From positions 1 to 21,139 of the IMG/VR virus record IMGVR_UViG_3300037517_002541: 21,139 bases of DNA, one strand, 5' to 3'. The notes under the pieces were generated by a model. The model was given only the letters and a program-made list of their open reading frames with translations, did no database searches and had not been told where the DNA came from. Position 1 is the stretch's first letter, and each line of letters opens with the position of its first letter. The position numbers and the translations under genes are program-made. This document shows, one piece after another, positions 5,001 through 19,941 of the stretch. This DNA comes from a virus.

Positions 5001-6746
5001 ATGGAGAAGATTGATGGTGCGCTGGCTCAGTTTGGTATCAACACGCTTAAAGACCTTGTTCCAATCGTAAAGACTCACATCGAGAACTATTCAGCAGCAG
5101 GGGCGCTTCCGGGTGTAGATGCACTTAGAGCAGCGTTTCCACAGGCAAGCAAGGAAAGCGCAACAATCCTTCGTGACCTACTGCATTTGTCTGCTGGCAT
5201 TGAGCCAAGGAAGGCATTTCCTTCTGAGAAGAGAGTCAACGAACCATTCATGGGTTCTGTTGCTGAACTGCCAAAGCAGCAGGTAACGGCATATAACGTC
5301 AAGGGTGAAGCTCGGCAGGCTGCGATGGCTCGCGAGAGGAGTGTATCGAACGACATTCGACTCGATGGTATCCGTAACGTACAGCTTTACGCTGATCCTA
5401 ATGGAATGCCAGTCAACGTGAATGTTGACCTTGCAAGGTTTGTCCCAAATCAAAGATCTAACTTCAGCCCATCAACCTCCATATCCGAGACACTCGGAGA
5501 CAAGACGGTTGTTACTGATCCTGAAACGGGGCGCAGAGCATTTATCCAGCCTAATGGTAAAACAAAGGTATACGGCAAAGATGGATCTTTGACTGGAATC
5601 TATGAAGACTTTAGCCAAGCTCAAACAAAGCTCAACCAAGCTGACATTAGATTCTCACCAAGAAGTCCTGCTGCAATTGCTCGTCGAGCTGAAGAAGCTA
5701 AGGCAATGCGTGCCCGTATCGAGGAGGAAGCTCCCACCAGAATAATGACTGAGTGGCTTGCTGCTGCTGGTCAGGCAAAACAAAAAGAAACGCCTTCACC
5801 TACAGCCGAACCACAGCGTGCAAAGGGCAAGGTTAAGCCGTCCATTGTAGAGCAGGCAGCAGTGCAGGCTCAGAGTGATTTGCTTCGCAAGATGGAAGCT
5901 ACCACTGGGTATTCTCAGCTATCGAAGGGACAAAGAGAACAGTTCCTTAAGGATGCATCAGAAGCTAGAAACGGCATTGCTCAGAAGGCACTTGAAAAGA
6001 TTGCTGCTCAACAACAGGCAAAGAGGCAATCCATGCAACAAGAGGCAGCAGCATTTAAGGCAGATGCTGAAAGCTATCTTGCAAAGCGAGATGTTCCATT
6101 CTTGGACGTTCAGGAAACGCGAGACATCCTCCGCAAGAAGCCAAACAAGCGAGCACAAGTCGCCCCTGTTGAACTTGAGGCCATAGCAAGGCTTGAAGTT
6201 GCTCCTTCTTTTGTACGTAGAGATCTTGGCCCAACGCCTAAACCTACTGCTCCCGGCACATATGCTGGCTTTGAAGCTTTAAGTGCTGTTGGTCTTCCAA
6301 GGGAAGCTGCGCCAGTAAGGCAAGTGATCTCTCCACGGGTTGTCAACTTGCTTGGGACTAACCCAACAAAGGCGATGGCGCGTATCTTGGGAGAACTTGC
6401 AAAGCAAGCCGCTGATAGGCCCGATTTGCTTAGAACCAAGCCCACTGAGTCAATGGCAAGAATCCTTGCAGAGCTTGCAAAGAAATCTGCTGAGATGCCA
6501 AAACGTGAGCCAGTCAGAGTTGATGTAACTACATCTATACCAGAACCTGCTATAGATATTGTCACTCCAATTGATGAACCTCGGTTACCATCGAACATGA
6601 TCGTGACCCGTACTCCAAAGGGCAACTTCCAGCTTTACGTCGTGACAACGGCTGGCAAGCTGTCTGCCGAAGGACTGTACAACAACTATCGTGACACCCT
6701 GCAAAGGGCTCAAACCAAATACCAAAAGAAATATGCCGCTCGTTAA
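2061..6746 (+). CDS. Giant virion protein (1561 aa), probable ejected internal protein with a degenerate zincin-like segment
   Basis: This is the largest gene in the window, starting 2 bases after the previous stop. Two glycine-zipper or Ala-rich hydrophobic stretches (about residues 290-340 and 400-450, including VGGVAGAAVGGLIG) could contact membrane. Around residues 574-660 there is AVEEVTHAFVG followed by LAEEWAANGVGEYL. This resembles zinc peptidase segments (HExxH plus a distal Glu) seen in large phage polyvalent proteins, but the first His is replaced by Glu (E575-E576-V-T-H579). A basic, Pro-rich region (700-800) precedes a second globular region (about 830-1080). FSP tripeptides occur near residues 1134 and 1198. 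The C-terminus is helical and Ala/Gln-rich with a duplicated 26-residue unit. Length and position fit a T7 gp16-like ejection protein; no lytic transglycosylase motif is evident. Confidence is high that it is a gene, low for mechanism. Confidence 0.8.
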   Translation: MPQDPSQPQVASGYYPADGGYSAPEQYASVSNQKIIPAGSIITLPYHNGKDGKPIQIRLEQDALEDDLQADLDAQFPKTAQNIGLEMLNGLTPVSQEDFDFALKVSEDMQKARAYRDKGDNGTMAKLSDVLPEAIKGLYEGALALGQSGVMAINTGYTPRQQINAVGSIIEGGIRGTELLADTGKMLFNLSTGDKYGAYVALKEMQAQEEIYKRGGGTLPLDPEAAAQANKIKNVLDVTVLMPGLGKLLGNIGKEAAVQTVKDIAEQSTVGLVRRAVSSVADKVGSTGAELLGSSTVGTAGKIGAGVIGTAAAYEADSPLLGAAVGLGLVKAPALAKAGMSTLKWAGKIVGADAASEVIAQGLKEAAEAGTKESTLRAVAKVLPSDHAMRAFGQIADSSINGALIGASISGVQAAADPFNTGLDIAEQALVGGVAGAAVGGLIGTVPAAIEYSPAGRNRAFVREMAKDIAGRPENRSFVVGDTEVTVPDVQNRINLLNKEGMSTTDKARIFAILKSAEFSGNDVGFINDSTALPESLGGAGEAMGKGVRITPGYDGKRSTILINVDQINPASAVEEVTHAFVGREAGKKIISDLIVDRGGLSAALDPLIQLGQRYYDTQVQSNPQAAARFGRELAIAKDVNLPPEVRQQAAITLAEEWAANGVGEYLKNEDPTVLQVGRGNQNFIGDIIRKGLFEINSGLNLQPSAPTRDPITGFYYKDGKLINDPVLSGIAQKMKNAILYFDKGDGRYFPVDRPGAPIKQRARKPSPAEEAGIQINDKLPDGTQVTGTRPEPRYEDTHAVDQKSGAKAGEETTKTGVKPRGKAKTELGKDDYHNMVFQQFAKITGEKVFDPEMSGLGVYFGQTTGIKPGTPIVYSKYLDNQQLEGLFGIQTHQGKPLIAPENRDAVARFNQAAKDGSLIVVDYDKNIGKETSGRSYAVSGQQVLLPLGIQQTPKGGPIAGVFNLSLLNDVINYQRLLPGMEKIDGALAQFGINTLKDLVPIVKTHIENYSAAGALPGVDALRAAFPQASKESATILRDLLHLSAGIEPRKAFPSEKRVNEPFMGSVAELPKQQVTAYNVKGEARQAAMARERSVSNDIRLDGIRNVQLYADPNGMPVNVNVDLARFVPNQRSNFSPSTSISETLGDKTVVTDPETGRRAFIQPNGKTKVYGKDGSLTGIYEDFSQAQTKLNQADIRFSPRSPAAIARRAEEAKAMRARIEEEAPTRIMTEWLAAAGQAKQKETPSPTAEPQRAKGKVKPSIVEQAAVQAQSDLLRKMEATTGYSQLSKGQREQFLKDASEARNGIAQKALEKIAAQQQAKRQSMQQEAAAFKADAESYLAKRDVPFLDVQETRDILRKKPNKRAQVAPVELEAIARLEVAPSFVRRDLGPTPKPTAPGTYAGFEALSAVGLPREAAPVRQVISPRVVNLLGTNPTKAMARILGELAKQAADRPDLLRTKPTESMARILAELAKKSAEMPKREPVRVDVTTSIPEPAIDIVTPIDEPRLPSNMIVTRTPKGNFQLYVVTTAGKLSAEGLYNNYRDTLQRAQTKYQKKYAAR
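6348..6503 (+). repeat. Tandem 26-residue duplication inside the giant virion protein
   Basis: Residues 1430-1455 and 1456-1481 align without gaps. LLGTNPTKAMARILGELAKQ is matched by LLRTKPTESMARILAELAKK, 26 residues (78 bases) later. The DNA copies have diverged more than the protein, so this is an old duplication kept under coding constraint. The unit is helical (MARILxELAKx). Confidence 0.85.
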
Positions 6747-6891
6747 ATCTCCATCCGATAAAGCCTTCACCGAGAACCTTCGCCGCGAGCTGGGAGCTGG
6801 GAAGCCAACCAAACAGGCACTTGCCATTGCGTACTCTGTACAGAAGGAAGCTGCAAAGAAGCAGCACGCAAAACCAGCAAAACGCAGATAA
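6733..6891 (+). CDS. Small basic phage protein with GKPxKQAxAIAYS motif
   Basis: This encodes 52 aa, starting at the ATG at 6733, which overlaps the last 14 bases of the giant virion gene. An in-frame start further upstream would only add residues inside that gene. The sequence MPLVKSPSDKAFTENLRREL, then GAGKPTKQALAIAYS and a Lys/Arg-rich end, matches a very common small phage protein pattern (K.(A/F)..N...E...GKP.KQA.AIA). I know this pattern from many phage genomes, with no established function. The protein is strongly basic at its C-terminus, so nucleic acid binding or packaging into the virion is plausible but unproven. It closes the virion module. Confidence 0.8.
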   Translation: MPLVKSPSDKAFTENLRRELGAGKPTKQALAIAYSVQKEAAKKQHAKPAKRR

Positions 6892-6978: not shown

Positions 6979-7614
6979 ATGACTCAAATCAAAGACTTAG
7001 AACAATTAGCGCCAAACACCGCAATCGCGGAAATGGTACTCGGGGTAAAAGCTGTTTACCCTCCTAAAAGCCCAAAGGCACCTTACAACTTGGTGGTGTT
7101 CGACTCCACGGGTGAATCCCGTCTTGCCGCATGGAGTGATGTTGACCTCTCCGATTACAAGGGTGGCCGGATTACGGTGCGTTCAACCGCTACCAAGAAA
7201 GGTCTTGATGGCCTGAATGTAGTGTACAGCGAGTACAACAAGCGCAACGAACTCAAACTTGGCAAAGCTGGTCAGATCTTCAATGATGCTGAGTTGCAGT
7301 TGCAAGGTGGAAGCACGGGGCCAAATCCTGCTGTAACCAGCAAGAGTCCCATTGTGGCCCCCTCTGCTGCCAGCCCAAAGGCGTTCATCTTCCAAAATGC
7401 TCAACTCATGGTTGAGGCCATTAATGCTGCACAGTGGGTTGCAAAGCAAGTTGAGGCTCTTAGCCCGGAGCATGTTCAGGCTATTGCCACTTCACTGTAC
7501 ATCAGCGCCGAACGCGCAGGCATGGCAAGGCAGTTCCCGCAGTCCGAGAAGAAGGCTGAGACAAAGGTTGCTGCACCAGCAAAGAAGGACGACGAAGATG
7601 ATCTTGGATGGTAA
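6979..7614 (+). CDS. Putative single-stranded DNA-binding protein (OB-fold, acidic C-terminal tail)
   Basis: This encodes 211 aa. Residues about 15-100 alternate short beta-like stretches (YNLVVFDSTGESRLAAWSDV, ITVRSTATKKG, LNVVYSEYN) in the way of an OB-fold. A flexible Pro/Ser/Ala linker follows, then a helical segment (about 135-185), and the protein ends in KKDDEDDLGW. An acidic tail ending in an aromatic residue is the hallmark of SSB-type proteins, where it recruits partners such as helicase, polymerase and nucleases. The gene opens the replication module, just before the HTH and resolvase genes, which supports the role. It starts at an ATG behind an A-rich leader (TAAACTAGAAAACAACAAA) with no Shine-Dalgarno. 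It is not a classical bacterial SSB sequence, and the OB assignment is by pattern. It could also serve as an annealing partner for the RecE-like nuclease downstream. Confidence 0.6.
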   Translation: MTQIKDLEQLAPNTAIAEMVLGVKAVYPPKSPKAPYNLVVFDSTGESRLAAWSDVDLSDYKGGRITVRSTATKKGLDGLNVVYSEYNKRNELKLGKAGQIFNDAELQLQGGSTGPNPAVTSKSPIVAPSAASPKAFIFQNAQLMVEAINAAQWVAKQVEALSPEHVQAIATSLYISAERAGMARQFPQSEKKAETKVAAPAKKDDEDDLGW

Positions 7615-7615
7615 T

Positions 7616-7810
7616 ATGGAACGACTCATCAAAACCAAAGAGGTAGCCTTGCAGCTAGGGCTAGAAACAAACACCGTCCTCCGATTGGCGCGTGAAAACA
7701 AAATCCCACACTTTCGGTACGGCCCTCGTACTGTAAGGTTTAAGGCAAGCGATATTCACAAGTATCAAGCCAATGCCAAAAAAGATCAACAGCCGAGCGA
7801 AGGGGTGTAG
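7616..7810 (+). CDS. Small helix-turn-helix protein (excisionase / MerR-like HTH fold)
   Basis: This encodes 64 aa. The ATG at 7616 is 1 base after the previous stop. An in-frame start further upstream would lie inside the upstream gene and is unlikely. The pattern LIKTKEVALQLGLETNTVLR, LARENKIPHFRYGPRTVRF, then KASDIHKY is that of the winged HTH domain of excisionases and DNA-binding helix-turn-helix family 17: a recognition helix followed by a G-P-R-T-V-R-F wing and a DI/DL helix. Such proteins bind DNA as small regulators or as excisionases. No integrase gene lies in the window, so a transcriptional or replication-accessory role is as likely as excision. It overlaps the next gene by 38 bases, which couples their translation. 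Confidence 0.75.
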   Translation: MERLIKTKEVALQLGLETNTVLRLARENKIPHFRYGPRTVRFKASDIHKYQANAKKDQQPSEGV

Positions 7811-8132
7811 GGGCGAACGACTGTGGCGTGATGTCCTCCGCGAGGAGGGCTTCACTGCCCGTCGAGGCCAACAGTTCTCAGGTGGCACAGAGTCACCTGA
7901 TGTAATCTGCGATGAGCTTAAGTCCCTTCACATGGAGGTTAAGTTTGTCGAGCGGCTCAACCTTGAGCAGGCTTGTGAACAGGCTGACCGGGATCGCGGC
8001 GTTAAGCCGTACATCATTGCCCACAAGAAAAGCCGTAGCGGCTGGAAGGTAACGATGGATGCATCACTCTTTTTTGCACTCCTCCGTGATGGCATGGATG
8101 TTTTGAGAAATGAGTGGATGTCTGAGCTGTAA
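7773..8132 (+). CDS. Holliday junction resolvase-like PD-(D/E)XK nuclease
   Basis: This encodes 119 aa. It carries the signature of Hjc-type and phage resolvases: KGCRGERLWRDVLREEGF with an early catalytic-type Glu at 15, RRGQQFSGG, SPDV with Asp43, then MEVKFVERLNL with Glu55-x-Lys57, and a final IIAHKKSRSGWKVTM strand. These correspond to the E...D...ExK active site of the PD-(D/E)XK superfamily. The expected activity is metal-dependent cleavage of four-way or branched DNA during recombination, repair or before packaging. The gene starts inside the upstream HTH gene and lies in the replication operon. Length is normal for the family and all key residues are present. Confidence 0.85.
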   Translation: MPKKINSRAKGCRGERLWRDVLREEGFTARRGQQFSGGTESPDVICDELKSLHMEVKFVERLNLEQACEQADRDRGVKPYIIAHKKSRSGWKVTMDASLFFALLRDGMDVLRNEWMSEL

Positions 8133-8498: not shown

Positions 8499-9249
8499 AC
8501 TTCGCATCACCACCTCAGGCGGCACCAAGATCGAACTCGATATTCCAATCGACGATTCTACGCCAGCTTCCATCCAGTCCGCTGTACCTTATCAGCCAGC
8601 ACCCGAACCTGTGGTAGAAACGGCCACAGAGACGCAGGACGAGGTAGTTCGTTTGTTTGATGAGCCAACGCCTGTTCAGCCAGCAACGGATCTTGAGGAT
8701 GCAATGTGGAAGCACAAGACCTCGCCAACCTTTCCGTCGAACAAGGATCTTGAACCGACAGGCAAACGCTACACCTCAGTCGAGGCAATGGTTGAGGATA
8801 CTTGCCCTGAGATTCTCGATGCATTCAAGCAAAGCCTACAGCAAGGGGAAGGGGAAAAGGGGGAAGATGGTAGGATAGGGGGTGTGGGGGAAAGGAAGGA
8901 AGATGGGGAAAAGGGGAAACCCGAGCGATCCATTGCGTTTGATTTTAAATTCATGTGCAAAGGTAAAGATGACTACACGCCACCAGACTTGTTGGTTCAA
9001 AACCATCTTGCCGCTTACGGCGAGGAGTTTGTCATTGCCCAGTATCGCGAAGCTCAAAACTGGCTACTCACAAACACGCACAAGTTGAAGACACTTGGAG
9101 GAACCGGAAAGTATCTTTCTGGATGGCTAAAGCGATCCAAGAAGTATCAAGACGATGAAGCTCGCAAGTTGGCGGCACAACCAGTTCGCGTTTTCCAAAA
9201 AGCAGATAATTTATTGAGCAATGCAAACACGCAAACAGAAGGGTGGTAA
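8491..9249 (+). CDS. Candidate helicase loader / primosomal replication protein with a purine-tract-encoded linker
   Basis: This encodes 252 aa from the ATG at 8491; reading further upstream only re-reads the preceding gene. The N-terminal 90 residues are acidic and Pro-rich, followed by a short helical region (95-117). A low-complexity Gly/Glu/Lys/Arg linker (119-143) is encoded by a G-rich purine tract. The C-terminal region (165-220) includes FVIAQYREAQNWLLTNTHKL and GTGKYLSGWLKRSKKY. The latter resembles the W-L-x-x-N-x-(x)n-K-T-x-x-G-x-x-(R/K)-(F/Y)-(I/L)-x-x-W-L motif at the C-terminus of many phage replication O, DnaD and DnaT-like proteins. It overlaps the DnaB-like gene by 29 bases, where loaders often sit. 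The loader role is inferred; there is no AAA+ motif, so it is not a DnaC-type ATPase. Confidence 0.55.
   Translation: MIKLRITTSGGTKIELDIPIDDSTPASIQSAVPYQPAPEPVVETATETQDEVVRLFDEPTPVQPATDLEDAMWKHKTSPTFPSNKDLEPTGKRYTSVEAMVEDTCPEILDAFKQSLQQGEGEKGEDGRIGGVGERKEDGEKGKPERSIAFDFKFMCKGKDDYTPPDLLVQNHLAAYGEEFVIAQYREAQNWLLTNTHKLKTLGGTGKYLSGWLKRSKKYQDDEARKLAAQPVRVFQKADNLLSNANTQTEGW
8845..8916 (+). repeat. G-run purine tract, potentially G-quadruplex or triplex forming, within the candidate loader gene
   Basis: In 72 bases on the plus strand there are seven runs of four or five G (GGGGAAGGGGAAAAGGGGG, GGGGG, GGGGG, GGGG, GGGG) with almost no C. It encodes residues 119-143 of the upstream protein as a Gly/Glu/Lys linker. 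Irregular GGGGA-type repeats like this are familiar from some cyanobacterial genomes, which is a weak host hint. Lying just before the helicase gene, it could act as an unwinding or replication-pausing element. Confidence 0.7.
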
Positions 9250-9940
9250 CCCAACGCCAGATCTTGAGTTCTGCCGTGCAGAGGAGGCCGAGAAAGGACT
9301 TGTCAGCATCATCCTGAACAACCCGGACGAGGCGTTGCTAAAGATAACCGAAGCAGCCTTTAGCGTTGCTGACATCTTCGACATCCAGCTCCGAAACATT
9401 GCAGAGATTACCCTCCAGCAGGCGGCTCAAGGTAAGGCGACTGACATCCGCGTCATCTACGAGTTGGCACGCAAAGATACTCATCTGGAGTTTTATCAGT
9501 TGAGTGACTTGTACACGGCTTGTCCGATCTTGTCGCTCGCTAGTGAGTTCATCGAGCTAACCCGTACAGCAGCAAAGCGCAGGACTATGCAGATAGTATT
9601 GCACAACGCACAGACGGATATCCGATCCGGGGACTTGAATGAGTTCCTAACGGGACTAGTGGCAGTATCGGAAGGAGTGCAAAATGAGATTGCTCCTCCT
9701 AAAGTGCTTGACACTAAAGCTCAATTAATGGAGGCAACTACACGCTATGAGACTGGCGATGACAACAGCACCAGAATCAGAACTGGCTTTCCAGAGATTG
9801 ATAACATGACACCGATGCGCGAATCAGATTTGATCGTCGTTGGTGGCGAAACAAAATCAGGGAAAACAACTTGGGTACTAAACGTAATCGCAAACATAAT
9901 CAAACATGAAATTAGTCAACTTAACACCGCACAAAATTAA
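9221..9940 (+). CDS. Replicative DNA helicase DnaB, N-terminal half (domain, linker and Walker A only)
   Basis: This encodes 239 aa. The first 100 residues follow the DnaB N-terminal domain pattern (AEEAEKGLVSIILNNPDEAL, then LRNIAEITLQ and ELARKDTHLEF). A linker helix region follows, then RIRTGFPEIDNMTPMRESDL with the typical entry to the RecA-like domain. Walker A is GGETKSGKTT (208-217) with Lys215. The frame then runs through the following helix (WVLNVIANIIK) and stops after 9 further residues that do not look like helicase. Everything C-terminal, including Walker B, is missing here and is encoded separately at 11244-11840. The last 35 bases overlap the next gene. Alone it cannot complete an ATP site, so it should need its partner polypeptide. 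Helicase identity is very secure. Confidence 0.92.
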   Translation: MQTRKQKGGNPTPDLEFCRAEEAEKGLVSIILNNPDEALLKITEAAFSVADIFDIQLRNIAEITLQQAAQGKATDIRVIYELARKDTHLEFYQLSDLYTACPILSLASEFIELTRTAAKRRTMQIVLHNAQTDIRSGDLNEFLTGLVAVSEGVQNEIAPPKVLDTKAQLMEATTRYETGDDNSTRIRTGFPEIDNMTPMRESDLIVVGGETKSGKTTWVLNVIANIIKHEISQLNTAQN

Positions 9941-11243: not shown

Positions 11244-11840
11244 ATGAAAAAAGGAATAATGATAGTCAGTCTGGAGATGTCTGCCCAGCAGATCATTGAT
11301 AGACTTGTAGCCAACTTAGGCGAGGTATCTTTGCGCTCTCTGGCAGAGGGCGTTAAAAGCGAGGGCGAGATGAAGGGTGTGTTCAAGGCTATGAACGCAC
11401 TCAACAAGGTGCCGATTGTGATCCGTGATGATCTGCACGACATTGCGTCCATAGTGGCAGCAGCGCGAGCGATGGGTAAGTCAAAGGACGGACTGAAGAT
11501 CTTGTTTATCGATTACATCCAGCTAGTGCGCTGTGACCTGACAAGTCACAAGGATATCACCCGTGAGCGTGAGGTGGCCGAGGTTAGCCGCAGGTTGCGT
11601 TTGCTGGGCCTTGAACTTGGGTGCGTGGTGTTTGCCATTACGCAACTCAACGAGCAGGGCAGGGCACGCGAGAGCCGGGCAATCGGACAAGACGCGACTG
11701 CGGTTGTGATCGTCAAGCTCACAGAAGATGCTGGAGAGCGCGAGATTAGCATCCCTATCCAACGCTCAGGCCCATCGGGCGTAAGCACCAAGCTAGGCTT
11801 TTCAGGCAGGCACGCAAAGTTCTTCTCTCTACCAAAATGA
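11244..11840 (+). CDS. Replicative DNA helicase DnaB, C-terminal half (Walker B onward)
   Basis: This encodes 198 aa. It begins MKKGIMIVSLEMSAQQIIDR, the strand and SLEM motif that normally follow the Walker A helix in DnaB. Walker B is ILFIDYIQL with Asp90. The H3 motif is AITQLNEQGR (Gln134), followed by RESRAIGQDATAVV (arginine and QD motif). H4 is IPIQRSGPSG, then KLGFSGRHAKF at the end. All C-terminal core motifs are present, but Walker A is absent and lies on the product of 9221-9940. A TAA in frame at 11238-11240 shows the frame cannot extend upstream. No Shine-Dalgarno is visible; the leader is TAAACTAAAAA. Together the halves give about 435 aa, near the normal DnaB length. It overlaps the next gene by 4 bases. 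Confidence 0.92.
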   Translation: MKKGIMIVSLEMSAQQIIDRLVANLGEVSLRSLAEGVKSEGEMKGVFKAMNALNKVPIVIRDDLHDIASIVAAARAMGKSKDGLKILFIDYIQLVRCDLTSHKDITREREVAEVSRRLRLLGLELGCVVFAITQLNEQGRARESRAIGQDATAVVIVKLTEDAGEREISIPIQRSGPSGVSTKLGFSGRHAKFFSLPK

Positions 11841-13739: not shown

Positions 13740-14011
13740 CGGAAGATTTCTATCGGCAAGCCAATCGTATTGTGCTAGATGCACTTAGGCGTAACATCGT
13801 TGTGTTTCCCGAGGATATCGGGGAGCGTAAAGGGTTTAGCTACAGAAAGATTGCGGCAGTCTGTGTGAAATGTGGTATTGATTACGAAAAGAACGTAACC
13901 ATCCAGAAGTTTTGCCAGCCTTGTGGCGAGATTGAATCCCGCGAAAGATACTTCAGGCGTAAACAGAGAAGACTCGATGCAAAAGCCAAAGAAAAAGAAG
14001 CGTCAGTATAA
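13721..14011 (+). CDS. Zinc-ribbon-type small protein (96 aa)
   Basis: This encodes 96 aa. CVKCGIDYEKNVTIQKFCQP followed by CG gives two CxxC knuckles (Cys48, Cys51, Cys65, Cys68) spaced 13 residues apart, a classical zinc ribbon. The N-terminus is helical (EDFYRQANRIVLDALRRNIV) and the C-terminus is very basic (RYFRRKQRRLDAKAKEKE), so nucleic-acid binding is likely. The neighbours are small phage regulators and the candidate small terminase, which overlaps by 35 bases. A role as transcriptional regulator or packaging accessory is possible; the sequence does not decide. Confidence 0.7.
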   Translation: MSAQPLTEDFYRQANRIVLDALRRNIVVFPEDIGERKGFSYRKIAAVCVKCGIDYEKNVTIQKFCQPCGEIESRERYFRRKQRRLDAKAKEKEASV

Positions 14012-14513
14012 GTCAGCCGAGACCCGTGCAAGGCAGCTTGCCGGGTTAGCCAATGTCAAGATCGAGGATCATGTCATGGGTGTACAGATCGAGAAGATCA
14101 ACGGTAAGGGCTTGTTTGCTGGGGTATCCGAGGAACAGCGTAAGGAGATCCTAGAACTGTACTGCCAAGGGCATGGTAGCCCGTATATCGCAGACAAAGT
14201 GGGTGTCTCGTACAATACAGTCAACGAGGTAAGGCAATACTTTTTGGATTACGATTCTCAATTTCGAAATTCATATTTCTCGGCAAACCTGAAGGGTAGG
14301 ATGCAGACCCTGATCGACGGAGCAATGAAGAGGGTAGAAGATACCCTGCCAGAGATGGCCCCTAAAGACGCCGTGCTGACCTTGGGCGTGACTCTGGATA
14401 AGTACATGGCCCTAGAGAAGAATAAGGCACCAGAACAGCTCCACCAACATGTACACCTGCACGCTCATGGAGAGATAGGGGACTTGTTCAATCAGGCTTC
14501 AAAACCAAAATGA
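13977..14513 (+). CDS. Candidate small terminase subunit or related HTH DNA-binding protein (178 aa)
   Basis: This encodes 178 aa from the ATG at 13977, the best start: an N-terminal extension to an upstream start would re-read the zinc-ribbon gene. A very basic N-terminus (KPKKKKRQYKSAETRARQ) precedes an HTH of the form SEEQRKEILELYCQGHGSPY, IADKVGVSYNTVNEVRQYFL (residues 51-90). A helical region ends in DAVLTLGVTLDKYMALEKNK, which recalls the central helices of many phage small terminases, and a His-rich segment HQHVHLHAH (156-164) is followed by GEIGDLF. Small terminases bind the packaging site and stimulate the large subunit. The large subunit lies 3.7 kb downstream across an opposite-strand cassette, so the assignment is tentative. 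A transposase-like or regulatory HTH protein is the main alternative. Confidence 0.5.
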   Translation: MQKPKKKKRQYKSAETRARQLAGLANVKIEDHVMGVQIEKINGKGLFAGVSEEQRKEILELYCQGHGSPYIADKVGVSYNTVNEVRQYFLDYDSQFRNSYFSANLKGRMQTLIDGAMKRVEDTLPEMAPKDAVLTLGVTLDKYMALEKNKAPEQLHQHVHLHAHGEIGDLFNQASKPK

Positions 14514-14539
14514 AAATGAAAATGAGATTTCAAATTTGA
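14510..14539 (+). other. Possible 9-codon coupling mini-ORF (MKMKMRFQI)
   Basis: The ATG at 14510 overlaps the preceding stop codon as ATGA. Three in-frame ATGs (ATGAAAATGAAAATG) lead to a TGA at 14537-14539, which itself overlaps the TTG start of the next gene at 14536. The arrangement would let terminating ribosomes pass from one gene to the next where no Shine-Dalgarno exists. It may be chance. Confidence 0.25.
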
Positions 14540-14811
14540 AAAATAAAACGATCTATTGCCCGGTACTTGGGCACTCTTTGGAGTACACGCAGTTCCTGGA
14601 TGAGGCAAAGCGTATTGCAACTCAACTGCAAAAGGCTCATCATGATGGCTTTGTAAAAGACGCAACATGCATAGATGCCAGACGGCTGGCCGTCGCGCTA
14701 GCAGCGTTTCAAGGTGATGTCAATGAGATTTTTGTGCCGATTAAAGAAGAGGACAGTGCAGAGCGTTGGGAAGCCTTAAGAGCTTCCCTAAGCGAAAAGG
14801 CAAAAGGGTAG
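14536..14811 (+). CDS. Hypothetical protein (91 aa) with a TTG start
   Basis: This encodes 91 aa. Between the in-frame stop at 14476 and this point there is no ATG or GTG, so translation probably starts at the TTG at 14536. Residues 20-60 are helical (LDEAKRIATQLQKAHHDGF, then CIDARRLAVALAAFQGDVNE) and the C-terminus is Glu/Ala/Lys-rich (EEDSAERWEALRASLSEKA). It has no recognised motif. It is the last gene of the plus-strand operon before the terminator. The rare start codon would keep expression low unless coupling helps. Confidence 0.6.
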   Translation: MKNKTIYCPVLGHSLEYTQFLDEAKRIATQLQKAHHDGFVKDATCIDARRLAVALAAFQGDVNEIFVPIKEEDSAERWEALRASLSEKAKG

Positions 14812-14821
14812 GGAAAAGAAA

Positions 14822-14851
14822 AGGGAAGCGCGAAGGCTTCCCTAGTCTTTT
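14822..14851. terminator. Bidirectional intrinsic terminator between convergent operons
   Basis: The stem AGGGAAGC (14822-14829) pairs perfectly with GCTTCCCT (14836-14843) around the loop GCGAAG. TTTT follows on the plus strand (14848-14851), and the T-rich complement of GGGAAAAGAAAA follows on the minus strand. It sits between the plus-strand stop at 14811 and the minus-strand stop at 14876, exactly where both operons need to end. Confidence 0.85.
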
Positions 14852-14875: not shown

Positions 14876-15241
14876 CTATAGCCCCATTTTTTCTAAGTAG
14901 TCTCCTACCGATTGAACGCGAAAACTTTGCGTTTTATAGCAAAAAAGAAGGGTATCTTGATAGGTTTCACCCAGGTTAACGTATGCCATCAAAGGGCATC
15001 GAAAGTCCTGGCCGTCAATTGCTTCAACTCCGTAGCCTTCTAAGAGTTCATTGAAACAGGAAAGGACCCTTTCCACCCATTTAGGCTCGTGGTAACAAGT
15101 TTTGATCCAAGCCACCGTTGAAGGGAAAAAAGCTTCATCCCTAGTTTTTTGCTCTTTTTTGATTAGAGCACGGATTAATTTTGCCTTGTCCCTTTCAAGG
15201 TTAAGGCTTTCGCAAAGTGTTTTGATGCTTGGGGCTTTCAT
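14876..15241 (-). CDS. Hypothetical protein with a VNLGETYxDTLL-type motif (121 aa)
   Basis: This encodes 121 aa, the last gene of the minus-strand cassette. The N-terminal half is helical (IKTLCESLNLERDKAKLIRA). The middle carries WIKTCYHEPKWVERVLSCFN and ELLEGYGVEAI. The C-terminal part is VNLGETYQDTLLFCYKTQSF followed by RVQSVGDYLE. The G(Y/H)GVEAI plus Y-V-N-x-G-(E/D)-T-Y-x-x-T-(L/I)-L arrangement occurs in many small phage and plasmid-borne hypothetical proteins I recognise by pattern only. The start ATG overlaps the upstream stop as ATGA. Three cysteines and many aromatic residues suggest a folded globular domain. No function can be assigned. Confidence 0.7.
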   Translation of the reverse strand: MKAPSIKTLCESLNLERDKAKLIRALIKKEQKTRDEAFFPSTVAWIKTCYHEPKWVERVLSCFNELLEGYGVEAIDGQDFRCPLMAYVNLGETYQDTLLFCYKTQSFRVQSVGDYLEKMGL

Positions 15242-15567
15242 AGAGATTCAACCTCCTTAACGGCTTTACTTTTCCAGGCGTCAATCCTGGCTCTATACAT
15301 TAAGTCTCTTTCAATTGCAGCCGAAACAATTCTCTCAGCTTTTTGCTCTGCTGCCGTAATCGCGCATTTTGCTGTATATTCTCCAGCTTTAATTAGCCCC
15401 ATCGCTCTTTCGCTTGCTTCGAAAAGGCTTAACGTGGGGATGTAGTCGCTTCGAAGAGCGTTCTCTAATTCAATCAAAAGAGACTGCATTGCCCCCTTCG
15501 AATAGCTTTCAATCGGTAAAGACTCGGCAAAGTCTTTCCAGGCGTCTAATTCTTGCTTTTTTGTCAT
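15238..15567 (-). CDS. Hypothetical helical protein (109 aa)
   Basis: I take the start at the ATG at 15567, giving 109 aa beginning MTKKQELDAWKDFAESLPIE. An upstream in-frame TTG at 15594 would add nine residues but lacks the leader signal. The ATG follows CTAAACATC, shared with other minus-strand starts. The sequence is helical throughout (GAMQSLLIELENALRSDY, then YTAKCAITAAEQKAERIVSA). The WKDFAESLPIES opening and YSKGAMQSLLIELENALRSD resemble small hypothetical proteins of phage early regions with no known activity. It is coupled by an ATGA overlap to the gene at 14876. Confidence 0.65.
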   Translation of the reverse strand: MTKKQELDAWKDFAESLPIESYSKGAMQSLLIELENALRSDYIPTLSLFEASERAMGLIKAGEYTAKCAITAAEQKAERIVSAAIERDLMYRARIDAWKSKAVKEVESL

Positions 15568-15587
15568 GATGTTTAGTTTGTTTGAAT

Positions 15588-15602
15588 GAAGCAAAATGCT
15601 TC
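15588..15602 (-). promoter_or_regulatory. Hairpin in the leader of the 15567 gene
   Basis: On the minus strand GAAGCA and TGCTTC form a perfect 6-bp stem around TTT, 20 bases upstream of the ATG at 15567. It lies in the 86-base gap after the small membrane gene. No T-run follows, so it is more likely an RNA stability or translation element than a terminator. Confidence 0.4.
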
Positions 15603-15653
15603 CTTCTCTCCCCTTGCCAAGGCAAAGAGAGAGACTGGAAACACTTTGAAAGC

Positions 15654-15818
15654 TTAAGCTTTAGGGAATAAAGGCTTTGCTAGCAAATAGAGAAGGGTAC
15701 CGGAGCAAACCAAAAGACTTCCGAAAATGTAAGCTTCCCAGCGAAGTTCGAAAGCTTTCAAGCTTCCAAGGTCAAATAAAGCCAAGCCAAGGGTGCCAAG
15801 GAAAAGGCTGGTTCTCAT
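15654..15818 (-). CDS. Small two-span membrane protein (54 aa)
   Basis: The ATG at 15818 starts 2 bases after the stop of the upstream minus-strand gene. The 54-residue product is MRTSLFLGTLGLALFDLGSL, a short loop KAFELRW, then EAYIFGSLLVCSGTLLYLLA and the tail KPLFPKA. It therefore has two likely membrane helices (about 3-20 and 28-47) with basic residues at both ends, suggesting a hairpin in the inner membrane. Holin, anti-holin, superinfection-exclusion or immunity roles are all conceivable for such a small phage protein; the sequence does not separate them. The codon pattern (many CTT, TTG, GCT) matches its minus-strand neighbours. Confidence 0.65.
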   Translation of the reverse strand: MRTSLFLGTLGLALFDLGSLKAFELRWEAYIFGSLLVCSGTLLYLLAKPLFPKA

Positions 15819-15820
15819 GA

Positions 15821-16240
15821 TTAAGCGTGTGCAATTGTTACGGTGTAATTCTTAAGCTCTGCAAAGTCTGCAAAAGCTTTGATGGCCGACATAATAGCAG
15901 GCTCGCCGACTCCACCAATTGCCTGTTCGAACCTAAGACCAGCCGACAAAAAAGCATTTTCAATAGCTTGGCTTTCTTTGCAGTACCCCCAGCCCCCAGC
16001 CTTTCCCCTTCCTACTGCATAGGCGTCTTTAGTTGATAGCCATAAGCATGCGTACGCTGTTTCCGCAGGCCAGTAAACGCGAATGATCAAGGGCTGATCA
16101 TACTGGGGAATCCCACTTTGCAGAATGTGCGCCTTTTCAAAATTAATGAGGGTATACTGGCGGAGTAAACCATGATTTTCTTTGCGATATGAACCAAGTG
16201 AATTGCTTTGAGGGTTAAATGATAGAACGGTATTTTTCAT
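15821..16240 (-). CDS. Hypothetical protein (139 aa) with KAGGWGY motif
   Basis: This encodes 139 aa, starting MKNTVLSFNPQSNSLGSYRK behind GAAAACATC. The central block VYWPAETAYACLWLSTKDAY, then GRGKAGGWGYCKESQAIENA, FLSAGLRFEQAIGGVGEPAI and MSAIKAFADFAELKNYTV resembles a family of small phage proteins with a K-A-G-G-(Y/W)-G-Y core and a terminal G-V-G-x-x-A-(I/M)-x-x-A-(I/L)-x-A-(I/F) helix, known to me only as hypothetical. It has a mixed alpha/beta make-up and no membrane segment. The cassette position and shared start signal suggest co-expression with the genes on either side. Confidence 0.65.
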   Translation of the reverse strand: MKNTVLSFNPQSNSLGSYRKENHGLLRQYTLINFEKAHILQSGIPQYDQPLIIRVYWPAETAYACLWLSTKDAYAVGRGKAGGWGYCKESQAIENAFLSAGLRFEQAIGGVGEPAIMSAIKAFADFAELKNYTVTIAHA

Positions 16241-16269
16241 GATGTTTTCGTTTGTTTAAGGGTTGAAGG

Positions 16270-16515
16270 TTAAAGGCTTTCCGAAGGTGTTAAGAATAGG
16301 ACAATGCAAGCGGATCCAAAGCGGGCCGATACTAAGTCAGAGTACTTCTCGGATGTATGCTTTCCAGTTAAGCCAAGGGCCCTTTTAGCTGCTCTAATGG
16401 CTCCACTAGGCGTACTAGCTTTGATTGTCCCCCTGCGTACCCAAGCGTAGTTGGCCTCCCCTCCGAAAGTATCTGTAAGCTCAAAGCTCCAAGTATAAGG
16501 TTTTTCTCGTTTCAT
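16270..16515 (-). CDS. Hypothetical protein (81 aa), TDTFGGEANYAWVRR family
   Basis: I take the start at the ATG at 16515, preceded by GTAAACATC; a more upstream start would read through the preceding gene. The protein is MKREKPYTWSFELTDTFGGE, then ANYAWVRRGTIKASTPSGAI, a helix RAAKRALGLTG and a final strand SARFGSACIVLFLTP. The T-D-T-F-G-G-E-A-N-Y-x-W-V-R-R core is a recurring signature of small phage proteins that I recognise without a function. The gap to the preceding gene is 5 bases, formed by the tail of the shared TAAACATC motif. Confidence 0.7.
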   Translation of the reverse strand: MKREKPYTWSFELTDTFGGEANYAWVRRGTIKASTPSGAIRAAKRALGLTGKHTSEKYSDLVSARFGSACIVLFLTPSESL

Positions 16516-16520
16516 GATGT

Positions 16521-16691
16521 TTACTTGGTGGCAAGTTTGCTGCGCTTGTATGCAAGGATGGCCTGCATTGCCTCTATAACCCTGCCGCAAGCTTGCAAGC
16601 GGGGTTTTCCAAAGATTCCATCCTTGGTTATAGCAAGTAAGGCGTCGTGAGCTTCTTGCAATTCTGCTTCCAGTGTTTTAAGTGTTTTCAT
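16521..16691 (-). CDS. Small helical protein (56 aa), first gene of the minus-strand cassette
   Basis: This encodes 56 aa from the ATG at 16691, after the leader CTAAACAAAAGAAAGAAA. A longer reading frame upstream has poor, Ser/Pro/Phe-rich composition and is rejected. The protein MKTLKTLEAELQEAHDALLA, ITKDGIFGKPRLQACGRVIE, AMQAILAYKRSKLATK is two helices around a GKPR turn with a basic end. I do not recognise a family. It is the promoter-proximal gene of the cassette, so it may encode an early regulator, but no DNA-binding motif is clear. Confidence 0.6.
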   Translation of the reverse strand: MKTLKTLEAELQEAHDALLAITKDGIFGKPRLQACGRVIEAMQAILAYKRSKLATK

Positions 16692-16735
16692 TTTCTTTCT
16701 TTTGTTTAGTGGTGGCGTGATTGCCAACGAAAGCG

Positions 16736-16763
16736 AATCTATCCGAAGCAAAAGGACTTGCAA
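16736..16763 (-). promoter_or_regulatory. Candidate promoter for the minus-strand cassette
   Basis: On the minus strand TTGCAA (16763-16758) and TAGATT (16741-16736) are separated by 16 bases, about 45 bases before the ATG at 16691. Each hexamer matches the sigma-70 consensus at four of six positions. It is positioned correctly for a divergent promoter but is otherwise weak. Confidence 0.4.
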
Positions 16764-16843
16764 CAAAAAAGAGAAGAAAAGGGCGAAAAAGGTTGCTTGG
16801 CCAGGGTGAAAAGCGGGCGAGATACAGGTGCAGGGTGAAGGGA

Positions 16844-16865
16844 TGACTTGATGCTGACTTGATGC
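16844..16865. repeat. Perfect tandem 11-bp repeat TGACTTGATGC
   Basis: TGACTTGATGC occurs twice head to tail (16844-16854 and 16855-16865). The spacing of about one helical turn suits two protein molecules binding side by side, such as a repressor or origin-binding protein in this divergent regulatory region. Confidence 0.75.
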
Positions 16866-17034
16866 GTTGACGTGAAGACGGCGCAAACCAAACGCAAGCT
16901 CAGCAAAGCCTGGACATTCATGCACTTACACAAGCAAAGCATCACAAGCACGCACAAGTACTTGAAGCAGCGCACCATGCAACATGATGGCAAGCAGTGC
17001 AGCCTGGCTTTTGTCTCTGTATCTGTAGCAGTAA

Positions 17035-17104
17035 GGGGGGGAGGGGGTTCGACGTTGTTCCGGCTGGAAAGCTGCGACGCATCCCCCCCCTCGGATTTTA
17101 TTTT
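17035..17104 (+). promoter_or_regulatory. G-run / C-run stem structure followed by a T-rich stretch
   Basis: GAGGGGG (17041-17047), preceded by more G, can pair with CCCCCTC (17086-17092) at the end of a run of eight C. The loop contains a smaller TTCC-GGCT-GGAA hairpin. GGATTTTATTTTTAC follows directly. It may be a large-loop terminator, the end of a small RNA, or a structured DNA site. The loop of nearly 40 bases makes a simple terminator less certain. Confidence 0.4.
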
Positions 17105-17247
17105 TACAAATGGGCCCACATGCACTTGACTGCCGCTTTTACTCTGTAAGACTGATGTTGTGTGTGTGTAGAAACGTGACGCGAGCGTGATTGCTCCTTA
17201 GCGTGTTTAGGCAGCCTTTACTTTGGGGAGTGGAGGTGAACTTGAGC

Positions 17248-17307
17248 ATGACTAAGCTGGTCTTCCTGTGGAAGGCTGGGCGTCATTTTTTGTGTCGACA
17301 GTATTGA
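17248..17307 (+). CDS. Possible 19-residue leader peptide with a strong Shine-Dalgarno
   Basis: The ATG at 17248 is preceded by GGAGGTGA (17232-17239) with 8 bases of spacing, the best ribosome-binding site in the window. The product is MTKLVFLWKAGRHFLCRQY. It ends at 17307, 32 bases before the next gene. A 7-bp hairpin and a T6 run lie within it. It may be a regulatory leader ORF. It has no run of identical codons of the kind seen in amino-acid attenuators, so the signal sensed, if any, is unknown. Confidence 0.4.
   Translation: MTKLVFLWKAGRHFLCRQY
17260..17291 (+). terminator. Attenuator-like hairpin with distal T6 run
   Basis: GTCTTCC (17260-17266) and GGAAGGC (17270-17276) form a 7-bp stem (one G-U) around TGT, and TTTTTT lies at 17286-17291. 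The T-run is 9 bases away from the stem, further than in a standard intrinsic terminator. It lies inside the 19-codon leader ORF, so ribosome position could control its folding. Confidence 0.35.
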
Positions 17308-17330
17308 CGTATGAACTTTGGGCGTATAGT
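17304..17330 (+). promoter_or_regulatory. Candidate promoter TTGACG - 15 - TATAGT
   Basis: TTGACG at 17304-17309 and TATAGT at 17325-17330 lie just upstream of the ATG at 17340. Each hexamer is close to the sigma-70 consensus, but the spacer is 15 bases, shorter than the preferred 17, and the predicted start would leave almost no untranslated leader. Confidence 0.4.
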
Positions 17331-17339
17331 CCAAGAAAG

Positions 17340-17750
17340 ATGACACAAAAGTACGAGTTAAGTGAGAAGAAGGTAAAAGAGGTGTATGGAGACAAGTTTG
17401 AGGACAAGTTAGCCCTACTTAAGGAGGGGTTTGACTACATTAAGATCAAAGATAAACGCTGTTTGGCTGGCTTTAAGCGTGTTTACCGGGCTGATCTTCT
17501 TGATTCGCTAGAGAAGAGGGTGGGTTTGGAAGAAGATAACGCAAAGATAGACGTACTTCCTATCAAGTTAAGTGAACAAGATGAAGTTATCTTCACTGAA
17601 GAGGTACAAAACATCTTTCCAAACACAAGATATGTGCGGGTAAAGAGTGGAAAGACGATTTATGTTGGTGGTAAAGGGACAAGTTTGCGACTTGGCCAGA
17701 AGATAAACTACAAAGGAACCACTATGTTTCTAGGTAAAGCGCAAAGCTAG
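17340..17750 (+). CDS. Hypothetical protein (136 aa), possible DNA-binding N-terminus
   Basis: This encodes 136 aa from the ATG at 17340. A longer frame from a GTG at 17268 would translate the leader region and is not preferred. The N-terminal half is charged and helical (YELSEKKVKEVYGDKFEDKL, ALLKEGFDYIKIKDKRC) and could be a small winged or helix-turn-helix domain. The C-terminal half looks beta-rich and basic (VRVKSGKTIYVGGKGTSL, then RLGQKINYKGTTMFLGK). I do not recognise the family. It is a single-gene transcription unit between its own promoter and terminator, and its position before the terminase block suggests a regulator, but that is inference. Confidence 0.65.
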   Translation: MTQKYELSEKKVKEVYGDKFEDKLALLKEGFDYIKIKDKRCLAGFKRVYRADLLDSLEKRVGLEEDNAKIDVLPIKLSEQDEVIFTEEVQNIFPNTRYVRVKSGKTIYVGGKGTSLRLGQKINYKGTTMFLGKAQS

Positions 17751-18201: not shown

Positions 18202-18217
18202 ACATAGGAGCCTATGT
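18202..18217 (+). promoter_or_regulatory. Palindrome covering the ribosome-binding site and first start codon of the terminase gene
   Basis: ACATAGG (18202-18208) and CCTATGT (18211-18217) are perfect inverted repeats around AG. Folded as RNA, a 6-bp stem with loop GAGC would bury the GGAG Shine-Dalgarno and the ATG at 18214, while the second in-frame ATG at 18220 stays outside. As DNA it is a 16-bp symmetrical site. Confidence 0.6.
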
Positions 18218-19941
18218 CAATGACAGAAGAACAGAAAAATAAGCTGATAGAGAAAATTTTAAGGTTCAAGCTGACGGATCACCCTACCTTGCCTAGACCG
18301 GACGAGGAACAGAGAAGGGCGATGATCGAGAATGTTGGTCCCGAGAAGGTGATGGAGCTCTTCATCATTAGAGAGAACAGGGCCAAGGCAGAGACGGAGG
18401 ATCCGCACAGGTATGGGGCAGACTTGGAACCTTGGAAAGATGCTGATGATTTATTGACTAGGTTTAACGAGGTGGTGGCACTTGGGGGGAACCGGGCAGG
18501 CAAAACTGAGTGGGCTGCTAAACGGATGGCACAAGCGTTTGTGGGTGCGGACTTGTCTGGAACAGTGCCGCATTGGATTGGTGAACGGATACAGCAGAGA
18601 GGCTTGCGTATTTGGTGCCTGCATACGTCTAACCAGACTAGCATTTCGATGCAGCAGATGGTCTTTTACAAGTACCTGCCGAAAGAACTTAAGAGTGCCA
18701 AGCGCAACAACAACATCCATGTCAGCTTTACCCAGAAGAACGGCTTTTCAGACAACACGGCTGTTTACATGCAGAACCAGATTTGGTTCTTAAACTACTC
18801 TCAAGACATTAAAGTGGTTGAAGGTGGCGAAGTTGACTTTATTTGGTGCGATGAAATGGTGCCAAAAGACTGGCTGGATACGCTTCGATACCGTTTAGTG
18901 ACCCGGAACGGCAAGTTGATTGTCACCTTTACCCCGGTACAAGGCTATACCCAGACCGTTAAGGACTACATTAACTCAGCAAAAATTACACATTGGAAAG
19001 AGAGTGAACTACTTCCAAATAGCAATGTGTTAAGTGTGCCTGCTGGCAACATGCCGTATAAGGCCGAGAACATCTATGGGAGACACGCCTGTATCTGGTT
19101 TCATTCTAAGTTGAATCCCTACAACAACTGGGATCGCATGAAGCAGGAGCTTAAGGGGCGCAGTACCAATGAGCTTAAGATTCGGGCTTATGGTTGGGCA
19201 GATCAGACTGCTGGTACGGAGTTTCCGTACTTTGGCGAGGTGAACATCTTTAAGGGGGATGTCATGGAAGTTGCACCTGAAGGGACAAACTACATGGCGA
19301 TGGACCCTGCTGGAGCGCGGAATTGGTTTATGTTGTGGGGCAGGGTGGATGAAGATGATATACTATGGATCTACAGGGAATGGCCTGACCAAAGTTACGG
19401 CGAATGGGCTTTGCCAAGCGATAAGCCTGACGGTAGACCCGGCCCTGCACAGAGAGGTGGAGCTGGAAGAGGCGTAAACGAGTATAGCGAACTTATTTGG
19501 GGAGTAGAAGCCCAAGGAGATAAGCGTGAAGAGATTGCTGAACGCTATATTGACCCTAGAACTGCCGGGACAGAGACAATTACCAAGGAAGGTGGAATTA
19601 CAATTGTAGACCTATTTGCCGAGGCTACAGTTCCTCTGTACTTGCAGGCATCTGCTGCAGTTCCTGTCGAGGAACGAGTTCTTTTAATTAATGACATGTT
19701 GTGCTACGACAGAGAACAGCCGTTGGTTAAAGGACGTAATCATCCTAAAATAATGGTACATGAATCTTGTCAAAACTTGATTTATAGTTTAAGGGAATGG
19801 ACTGGGGCTGATGGACAGAAGGGTGCCAGTAAAGATCCTATTGATGCTTTAGGCTACCTTGTGGTCATGCAACCCAAGCACTACGGCGGCGAACAATGGG
19901 AGAAGCAGATAAGACAAATGTCGAAATGCGGTTCCTATTGA
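18214..19941 (+). CDS. terL: Large terminase subunit (packaging ATPase and nuclease)
   Basis: This encodes 575 aa from the ATG at 18214; the second ATG at 18220 is better spaced from GGAG (18207-18210) and may be the real start. Walker A is GGNRAGKT (91-98), Walker B is VDFIWCDE (207-214) with the catalytic Glu at 214, and TFTPVQG is the coupling motif. The C-terminal RNase H-like nuclease starts with MAMDPAGARNW (Asp364) and ends with DPIDALGYLV (Asp541/Asp544). Both activities therefore appear intact and length is normal for the family. The enzyme translocates DNA into the prohead through the portal, encoded 13 bases downstream, and cuts the concatemer. Residues about 405-420 form an unusual Gly/Pro/Arg-rich insert (DGRPGPAQRGGAGRGVNEY), probably a surface loop. 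Confidence 0.95.
   Translation: MSMTEEQKNKLIEKILRFKLTDHPTLPRPDEEQRRAMIENVGPEKVMELFIIRENRAKAETEDPHRYGADLEPWKDADDLLTRFNEVVALGGNRAGKTEWAAKRMAQAFVGADLSGTVPHWIGERIQQRGLRIWCLHTSNQTSISMQQMVFYKYLPKELKSAKRNNNIHVSFTQKNGFSDNTAVYMQNQIWFLNYSQDIKVVEGGEVDFIWCDEMVPKDWLDTLRYRLVTRNGKLIVTFTPVQGYTQTVKDYINSAKITHWKESELLPNSNVLSVPAGNMPYKAENIYGRHACIWFHSKLNPYNNWDRMKQELKGRSTNELKIRAYGWADQTAGTEFPYFGEVNIFKGDVMEVAPEGTNYMAMDPAGARNWFMLWGRVDEDDILWIYREWPDQSYGEWALPSDKPDGRPGPAQRGGAGRGVNEYSELIWGVEAQGDKREEIAERYIDPRTAGTETITKEGGITIVDLFAEATVPLYLQASAAVPVEERVLLINDMLCYDREQPLVKGRNHPKIMVHESCQNLIYSLREWTGADGQKGASKDPIDALGYLVVMQPKHYGGEQWEKQIRQMSKCGSY

Follow-up and report, generated by a model that had tools for sequence, protein, structure and literature searches.

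A hypervariable small-gene cassette between the terminase genes of an uncultured tailed phage group

The stretch of viral DNA analysed here (the window; 21,139 nucleotides, 21.1-kb IMG/VR record IMGVR_UViG_3300037517_002541) is tailed phage DNA with its genes on the plus strand, except for six small ones that part the candidate small terminase gene (TerS) from the large one (TerL), and the locus raises the question of what a counter-oriented block does at this position. The initial annotation had described the block at 14876–16691 and read it as an early or moron module with anti-defence, superinfection-exclusion or host-takeover functions. The six genes are indeed there, nearly every sequence detail of that description proved correct, and they form the sole opposite-strand block both in the window and in L005, a near-complete relative of 39.8 kb with the same gene order. 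Our best explanation, to which we give a probability of about two in three, is a fixed exchange site in a lytic-type tailed phage of ~40 kb, occupied by an accessory module that is transcribed separately, serves in host interaction and contributes nothing to the virion.

The naming of the flanks as small and large terminase proved reasonable. TerS, on the left side of the slot (13977–14513, plus strand), encodes a 178-aa HTH protein whose HTH_23/HTH_38 matches fell just below the cut-off, and TerL, on the right side (18214–19941, plus strand), matches Terminase_6N (E = 0.0017) and, by tblastn, its distant kin, the TerLs of PaP3/tf-type podoviruses and of phage C75C1. Two further plus-strand genes complete the setting, orf91 (14536–14811) after TerS, with 46–100% amino acid identity across close relatives, and orf135/136 (17340–17750) between the slot and TerL, found in all 30 TerS–TerL intervals of the relatives described below. 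Searches of phage records returned no near-identical entry and no close named relative, and bacterial genome contigs searched with TerL contained no close relative.

Elsewhere in the window, the replicative DnaB helicase is split just after Walker A into two plus-strand ORFs (9221–9940 and 11244–11840), the N-half corresponding to DnaB_C positions 2–46 and the C-half to positions 49–253, with a DUF3799 PD-(D/E)XK nuclease and two small ORFs in between. The break falls at DnaB_C position ~46 in all 14 group genomes searched, with the halves about 1.2–3.8 kb apart. Two ORFs ahead of the helicase (6979–7614 and 7773–8132) read like an SSB and a small nuclease, judged by eye alone, and may form with it a compact block for replication; inspection by eye of the 39.8 kb of L005 revealed no DNA polymerase. 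The ORF at 2061–6746 (plus strand) encodes a 1561-aa protein, conserved in L005 and with no Pfam match, which is probably a large virion or ejected protein.

The cassette genes, all on the minus strand and ordered F-E-D-C-B-A from the promoter side, are real coding genes, and their dN/dS values against relatives (0.02–0.38) reveal purifying selection on all six. Start codons were refined for B, E and F and are ATG in each case. The first gene, F (16521–16691, ATG at 16691), encodes 56 aa (dN/dS 0.04–0.16). Gene E (16270–16515, ATG at 16515) encodes an 81-aa protein with the signature TDTFGGEANYAWVRR, matching phrog_22729 (E = 3.8e-8) and modelled with a pLDDT of 87.5, and gene D (15821–16240) a 139-aa protein with the signature GKAGGWGY, matching phrog_7028 (E = 2.9e-9) and modelled with a pLDDT of 90. 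Gene C (15654–15818) encodes a 54-aa predicted membrane protein with an invariant Asp (residue 16). Gene B (15238–15567, ATG at 15567; 109 aa, dN/dS 0.10–0.19) and gene A (14876–15241; 121 aa, VNLGETY, dN/dS 0.06–0.14) are swapped in relatives for genes X (107 aa) and Y (165 aa), respectively. The tight coupling attributed to the block holds for the pairs F-E (5 bp), D-C (2 bp) and B-A (overlapping), but not for C-B and E-D, separated by 86 and 29 bp. Its supposed AT-rich codon style likewise stands in comparison with TerL and TerS, since GC3 is 0.42–0.48 in the cassette and 0.52–0.58 in these genes, but not in comparison with other plus-strand genes (0.34–0.42).

A stem-loop at 14822–14843, with an 8-bp GC-rich stem and a T-rich tail on either strand, bears out the proposed bidirectional intrinsic terminator common to orf91 and the cassette. 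On the opposite side, the candidate cassette promoter (16736–16763, minus strand) consists of a −35 element TTGCAA (16763–16758) and a −10 element TAGATT (16741–16736) placed 16 nt apart. This pair is weak by consensus and a generic sigma-70 scan picked up no cassette promoter; nevertheless, the arrangement TTGCA(A/T)G, 16 nt, TANNNT is kept in 10/10 relatives in a 650-bp upstream alignment, directly before the first gene and even when that gene differs, which is consistent with the promoter that had been suggested. The non-coding divergent region (16692–17339) is long and holds conserved blocks common to ten relatives (TTTG-AAAAATAAAAT and GAGGGG...ACCCCCTCCCCC), and a candidate divergent promoter toward orf135–TerL (TTGACG, 15 nt, TATAGT; 17304–17330, plus strand) may be recognised in a conserved alignment block. 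The region could contain promoters, an operator or, as it adjoins orf135–TerL, a packaging site. An A-rich leader of the type AAACAAACTAAACATC-ATG, lacking a Shine-Dalgarno sequence, precedes F, E, D, B, X and a number of other genes; strong Shine-Dalgarno sequences are found at A and Y, both closely behind an upstream gene, and, in some relatives, at C. In the mechanism that we propose, a sigma-70-like, host-type promoter at 16763–16736 would drive leftward transcription of F-E-D-C-B-A to the terminator at 14822–14843, in opposition to the packaging and structural genes.

The 86-nt spacer that parts C from B is predicted to fold with a ΔG of about −35 kcal/mol (z = −4.4) and contains an intercistronic RNA hairpin (15598–15642, minus strand) of 6 bp, a 2x1 internal loop, 13 bp and a tetraloop, detected by folding and covariation. 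A small GAAGC..GCTTC hairpin (15588–15602, minus strand) follows and shares bases with the large one. In the close relatives all 19 pairs are formed in 10/10 sequences, with three compensated pairs (U-A/C-G, U-A/A-U and C-G/U-A) and G-U wobbles on the cassette strand only; pairing was lost when the partners were slid by 1–3 columns, and the covariation score was reached by 0/500 shuffles, the alignment consisting of ten related sequences in just two or three haplotypes. The two main haplotypes are independent of whether B or X comes next, and the hairpin was therefore retained across exchanges. Beyond the close group the hairpin model gave only reverse-strand echoes and one weak match in L098; among distant relatives two of eight stretches downstream of C fold strongly (L207 and L209), with no common element, and Rfam gave only sub-threshold chance matches on the region. 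The hairpin is thus a conserved RNA stem within the putative cassette transcript, in the close group only. The early genes of phage T7 have irregular RNase III hairpins in between, and the C-B element appears similar in lying between genes and in forming an irregular ~19-bp stem interrupted by an asymmetric internal loop, but its compensatory conservation is confined to a close phage group. In the message the hairpin probably keeps the two halves apart or makes them more stable, perhaps as a site of processing; it might also act as a recombination linker.

Comparison with relatives shows the cassette to be one filling of a variable slot. In close relatives found through the cassette genes (TerL 78–100% aa identity), position and strand are kept and genes are exchanged: in place of B+A stands X+Y or B+Y, in place of D a DUF7249 gene (PF23907, above cut-off), and in place of F unrelated small ORFs. 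As these loci had been found with cassette genes, sampling was repeated with TerL alone, giving 80 loci (out of >560 reachable relatives), of which 30 have TerS upstream of TerL (IMG/VR relatives, TerL 68–99% identity). The interval measures 2.8–7.7 kb in all 30 and is empty in none, so that the presence-or-absence comparison called for at the outset finds the site always filled and its gene content changing. Opposite-strand ORFs of about 1 kb or more occupy 24 of the 30 intervals by mechanical ORF calling; the other six, among them L136, L142 and L143, have no such block. In L136, whose TerL is 96% identical, the whole slot is a different, same-strand module (4674–6759, plus strand) coding for a 392-aa Cys-rich protein, a class II glutamine amidotransferase-like protein and a 58-aa hydrophobic protein; L142 has the same kind of module (a ~390-aa protein, a glutamine amidotransferase-like protein and a small hydrophobic one) and L143 a similar one. 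In a sister phage, L026, E and a gene of the DUF7249 type run in the direction of the terminase genes. Because of this same-strand content in L026, L136, L142 and L143, it is the slot and not the strand that is constant, and the opposite orientation can no longer be regarded as defining. The slots of distant members contain AAA_5 (PF07728) and DUF7192 (PF23822) modules, GP88 (PF17338) or DUF7227 (PF23872) proteins; in L211 (4039–6300, minus strand) an AAA_5 ATPase and DUF7192 lie beside a C-type membrane protein, and by reading the slots of L209, L203 and L150 resemble it. The DUF7249, DUF7192 plus AAA_5, GP88 and DUF7227 families occur in the slot of relatives and are absent from the window itself.

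The slot is, then, a hypervariable accessory-gene locus, with the same flanks, differing content and genes under purifying selection. It resembles other such loci (PMC12373910) in its conserved flanks, its interchangeable small genes and its mosaic structure between close relatives. What sets it apart is the TerS–TerL location, the usual opposite orientation, the recurrence of a membrane mini-protein and the hairpin in an intercistronic gap. A second likeness is with lambdoid prophage morons such as HK97 gp15 (PMC10883804), which have their own promoter and terminator, are transcribed independently of the flanking late genes and are suspected of a host-interaction role; judged by its sequence signals, the cassette would share this independence and carries a candidate promoter and terminator of its own. 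Unlike them, it has six genes instead of one or two and its composition is not clearly foreign. In the strict sense the label of moron fails, since none of the 30 relatives has an interval below 2.7 kb, that is, an empty site, and no sign of lysogeny was found. The case for a host-interaction module is built on content that varies at a fixed site in the TerL-only sample and among close relatives, on the conserved promoter-like pair and the bidirectional terminator, on the divergence between the window and L024 (dS 0.20 for TerL against 0.81, 0.97 and 1.69 for A, C and B, the value for TerS being left out because of a frame error), on the places of homologues in other phages and on the structural cluster of L005, where none of the cassette families, which might have been dispersed among structural operons, is found. 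It is weakened by the variation in strand, including one lineage in which E is co-oriented with TerL, by the weak consensus of the promoter and by the lack of a convincing fold match for the models of D and E.

Three of the cassette families, E, D and A, recur in unrelated phages, as the signatures singled out earlier had hinted. E has 367 matching stretches in IMG/VR, with homologues inside the terminal repeats of giant Caulobacter phages (phage Ccr2) and in small-gene clusters of JP1, 20Sep420 (Beaumontvirinae) and MW202825, in the last of these opposite the terminase strand; in one phage lineage with a 416-aa TerL it lies near the terminase and in the same orientation. A homologue of D is found in Vequintavirus Murica, in a small-gene cluster with Macro-domain and T7 gp1.1-like genes, and one of A among clustered small genes close to the cos end of BcepNazgul. 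Together with the content swaps, this sharing with unrelated phages supports, at the level of sequence, the proposed separate accessory module of high turnover. From the positions of these homologues and the promoter-like signal we infer early expression, and the products would be small non-virion proteins acting early on the host cell, C in the inner membrane and the others probably cytosolic.

Among more specific forms of the host-interaction module, the one that survives best is an anti-defence island, in which most of A-F inhibit restriction or other immune systems and turnover follows the defences of the host. As a special case of the main explanation it overlaps with it in confidence, and taken by itself we hold it to be plausible, with the odds somewhat against it. 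It would account for the high turnover at a single locus, the small size of the proteins and the families common to unrelated phages, and highly variable phage regions of this kind have been a source of anti-defence genes in screens (PMC12373910). On the other hand, searches of the PHROGs function classes and Pfam matched none of A-F to a known anti-defence, exclusion or host-takeover family, PADLOC, a library of defence and not of anti-defence systems, gave no match, and sequence searches of solved structures with the D, E, A and Y families returned nothing meaningful. A plasmid search for D and E found none. The models of D and E had no match in the PDB at E ≤ 0.001 (Foldseek, VIA-align), and that of D matched only unannotated phage proteins in BFVD. 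The best structural Z values, 5.7 for D and 5.5 for E, are within the range of common arrangements, and no solved fold was convincing.

Gene C directs attention to the membrane. A strict two-segment hydropathy count missed the protein of the window, only one of whose two segments passes the cut-off, and the family was for this reason traced with a profile. Homologues were found in 15 of the 30 TerL-chosen intervals, which makes C the most widespread cassette gene, every one on the cassette strand and down to 68% TerL identity; the seeds of the profile came from the same loci, which inflates their E-values, so that independent support comes from the non-seed matches only (e.g. L162, L210, L190, L182, L180 and L191). 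An alignment of 11 sequences shows residues M1, T3, L12, D16 and L20 to be invariant, with Asp16 within the first hydrophobic segment; we know of no invariant intramembrane Asp in HK97 gp15 or P22 SieA. C is predicted to be a small inner-membrane protein encoded outside the virion operon, and its point of action might be DNA entry or superinfection. Its spread and its Asp would fit a superinfection-exclusion module in which C blocks the entry of incoming DNA and its companions are passengers or partners, as would its dN/dS (0.06–0.38), which includes the highest values of the cassette. As a small predicted membrane protein encoded apart from the virion genes, C resembles HK97 gp15 and P22 SieA, inner-membrane exclusion proteins that stop DNA injection (PMC10883804), but no sequence relationship of C to them or to any other known exclusion protein was found. 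Exclusion, moreover, chiefly helps lysogens, and this phage group has no sign of lysogeny; C might just as well regulate lysis or serve as a membrane anchor. We regard exclusion as an improbable specific role, although anti-defence and C-based exclusion are the best specific guesses and both would be compatible with the main explanation.

Wholesale content swaps among close relatives would also be expected if the slot were a neutral landing site, tolerated between operons, for random cargo without a common role, but the purifying selection on all genes, the C family, promoter and hairpin kept through the swaps and the filling of 30/30 intervals make this quite unlikely. Least likely is a regulation of packaging, in which slot genes, counter-transcription or the hairpin modulate terminase expression, as the location always between the two terminase genes, the counter-directed transcription converging on orf91/TerS and the conserved RNA structure might suggest, because phages with nearly identical terminases differ in the entire content of the slot, which in L136 is even a same-strand module, while the hairpin is restricted to the close group and the terminator insulates TerS/orf91.

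Under the host-interaction reading, recombination within conserved flanks and linkers would exchange gene pairs or entire modules. A tentative extension, to which we assign perhaps a minor share of belief, is that the slot is a standardised gene-exchange platform in which promoter, Asp-bearing C and hairpin stay constant and flanking gene pairs are plugged in and out. If so, C and the hairpin would be functional parts of the platform and not cargo, C as a membrane-level effector and the hairpin as a point of mRNA processing or an exchange junction. For this uncultured phage group, the slot is a fixed, always-occupied exchange site whose coordinates allow accessory genes to be harvested systematically. 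The families E/phrog_22729, D/phrog_7028, DUF7249 and the A and Y types, widespread and functionally blank, are now placed in a single interchangeable context, and their functions can therefore be tested through direct swaps.
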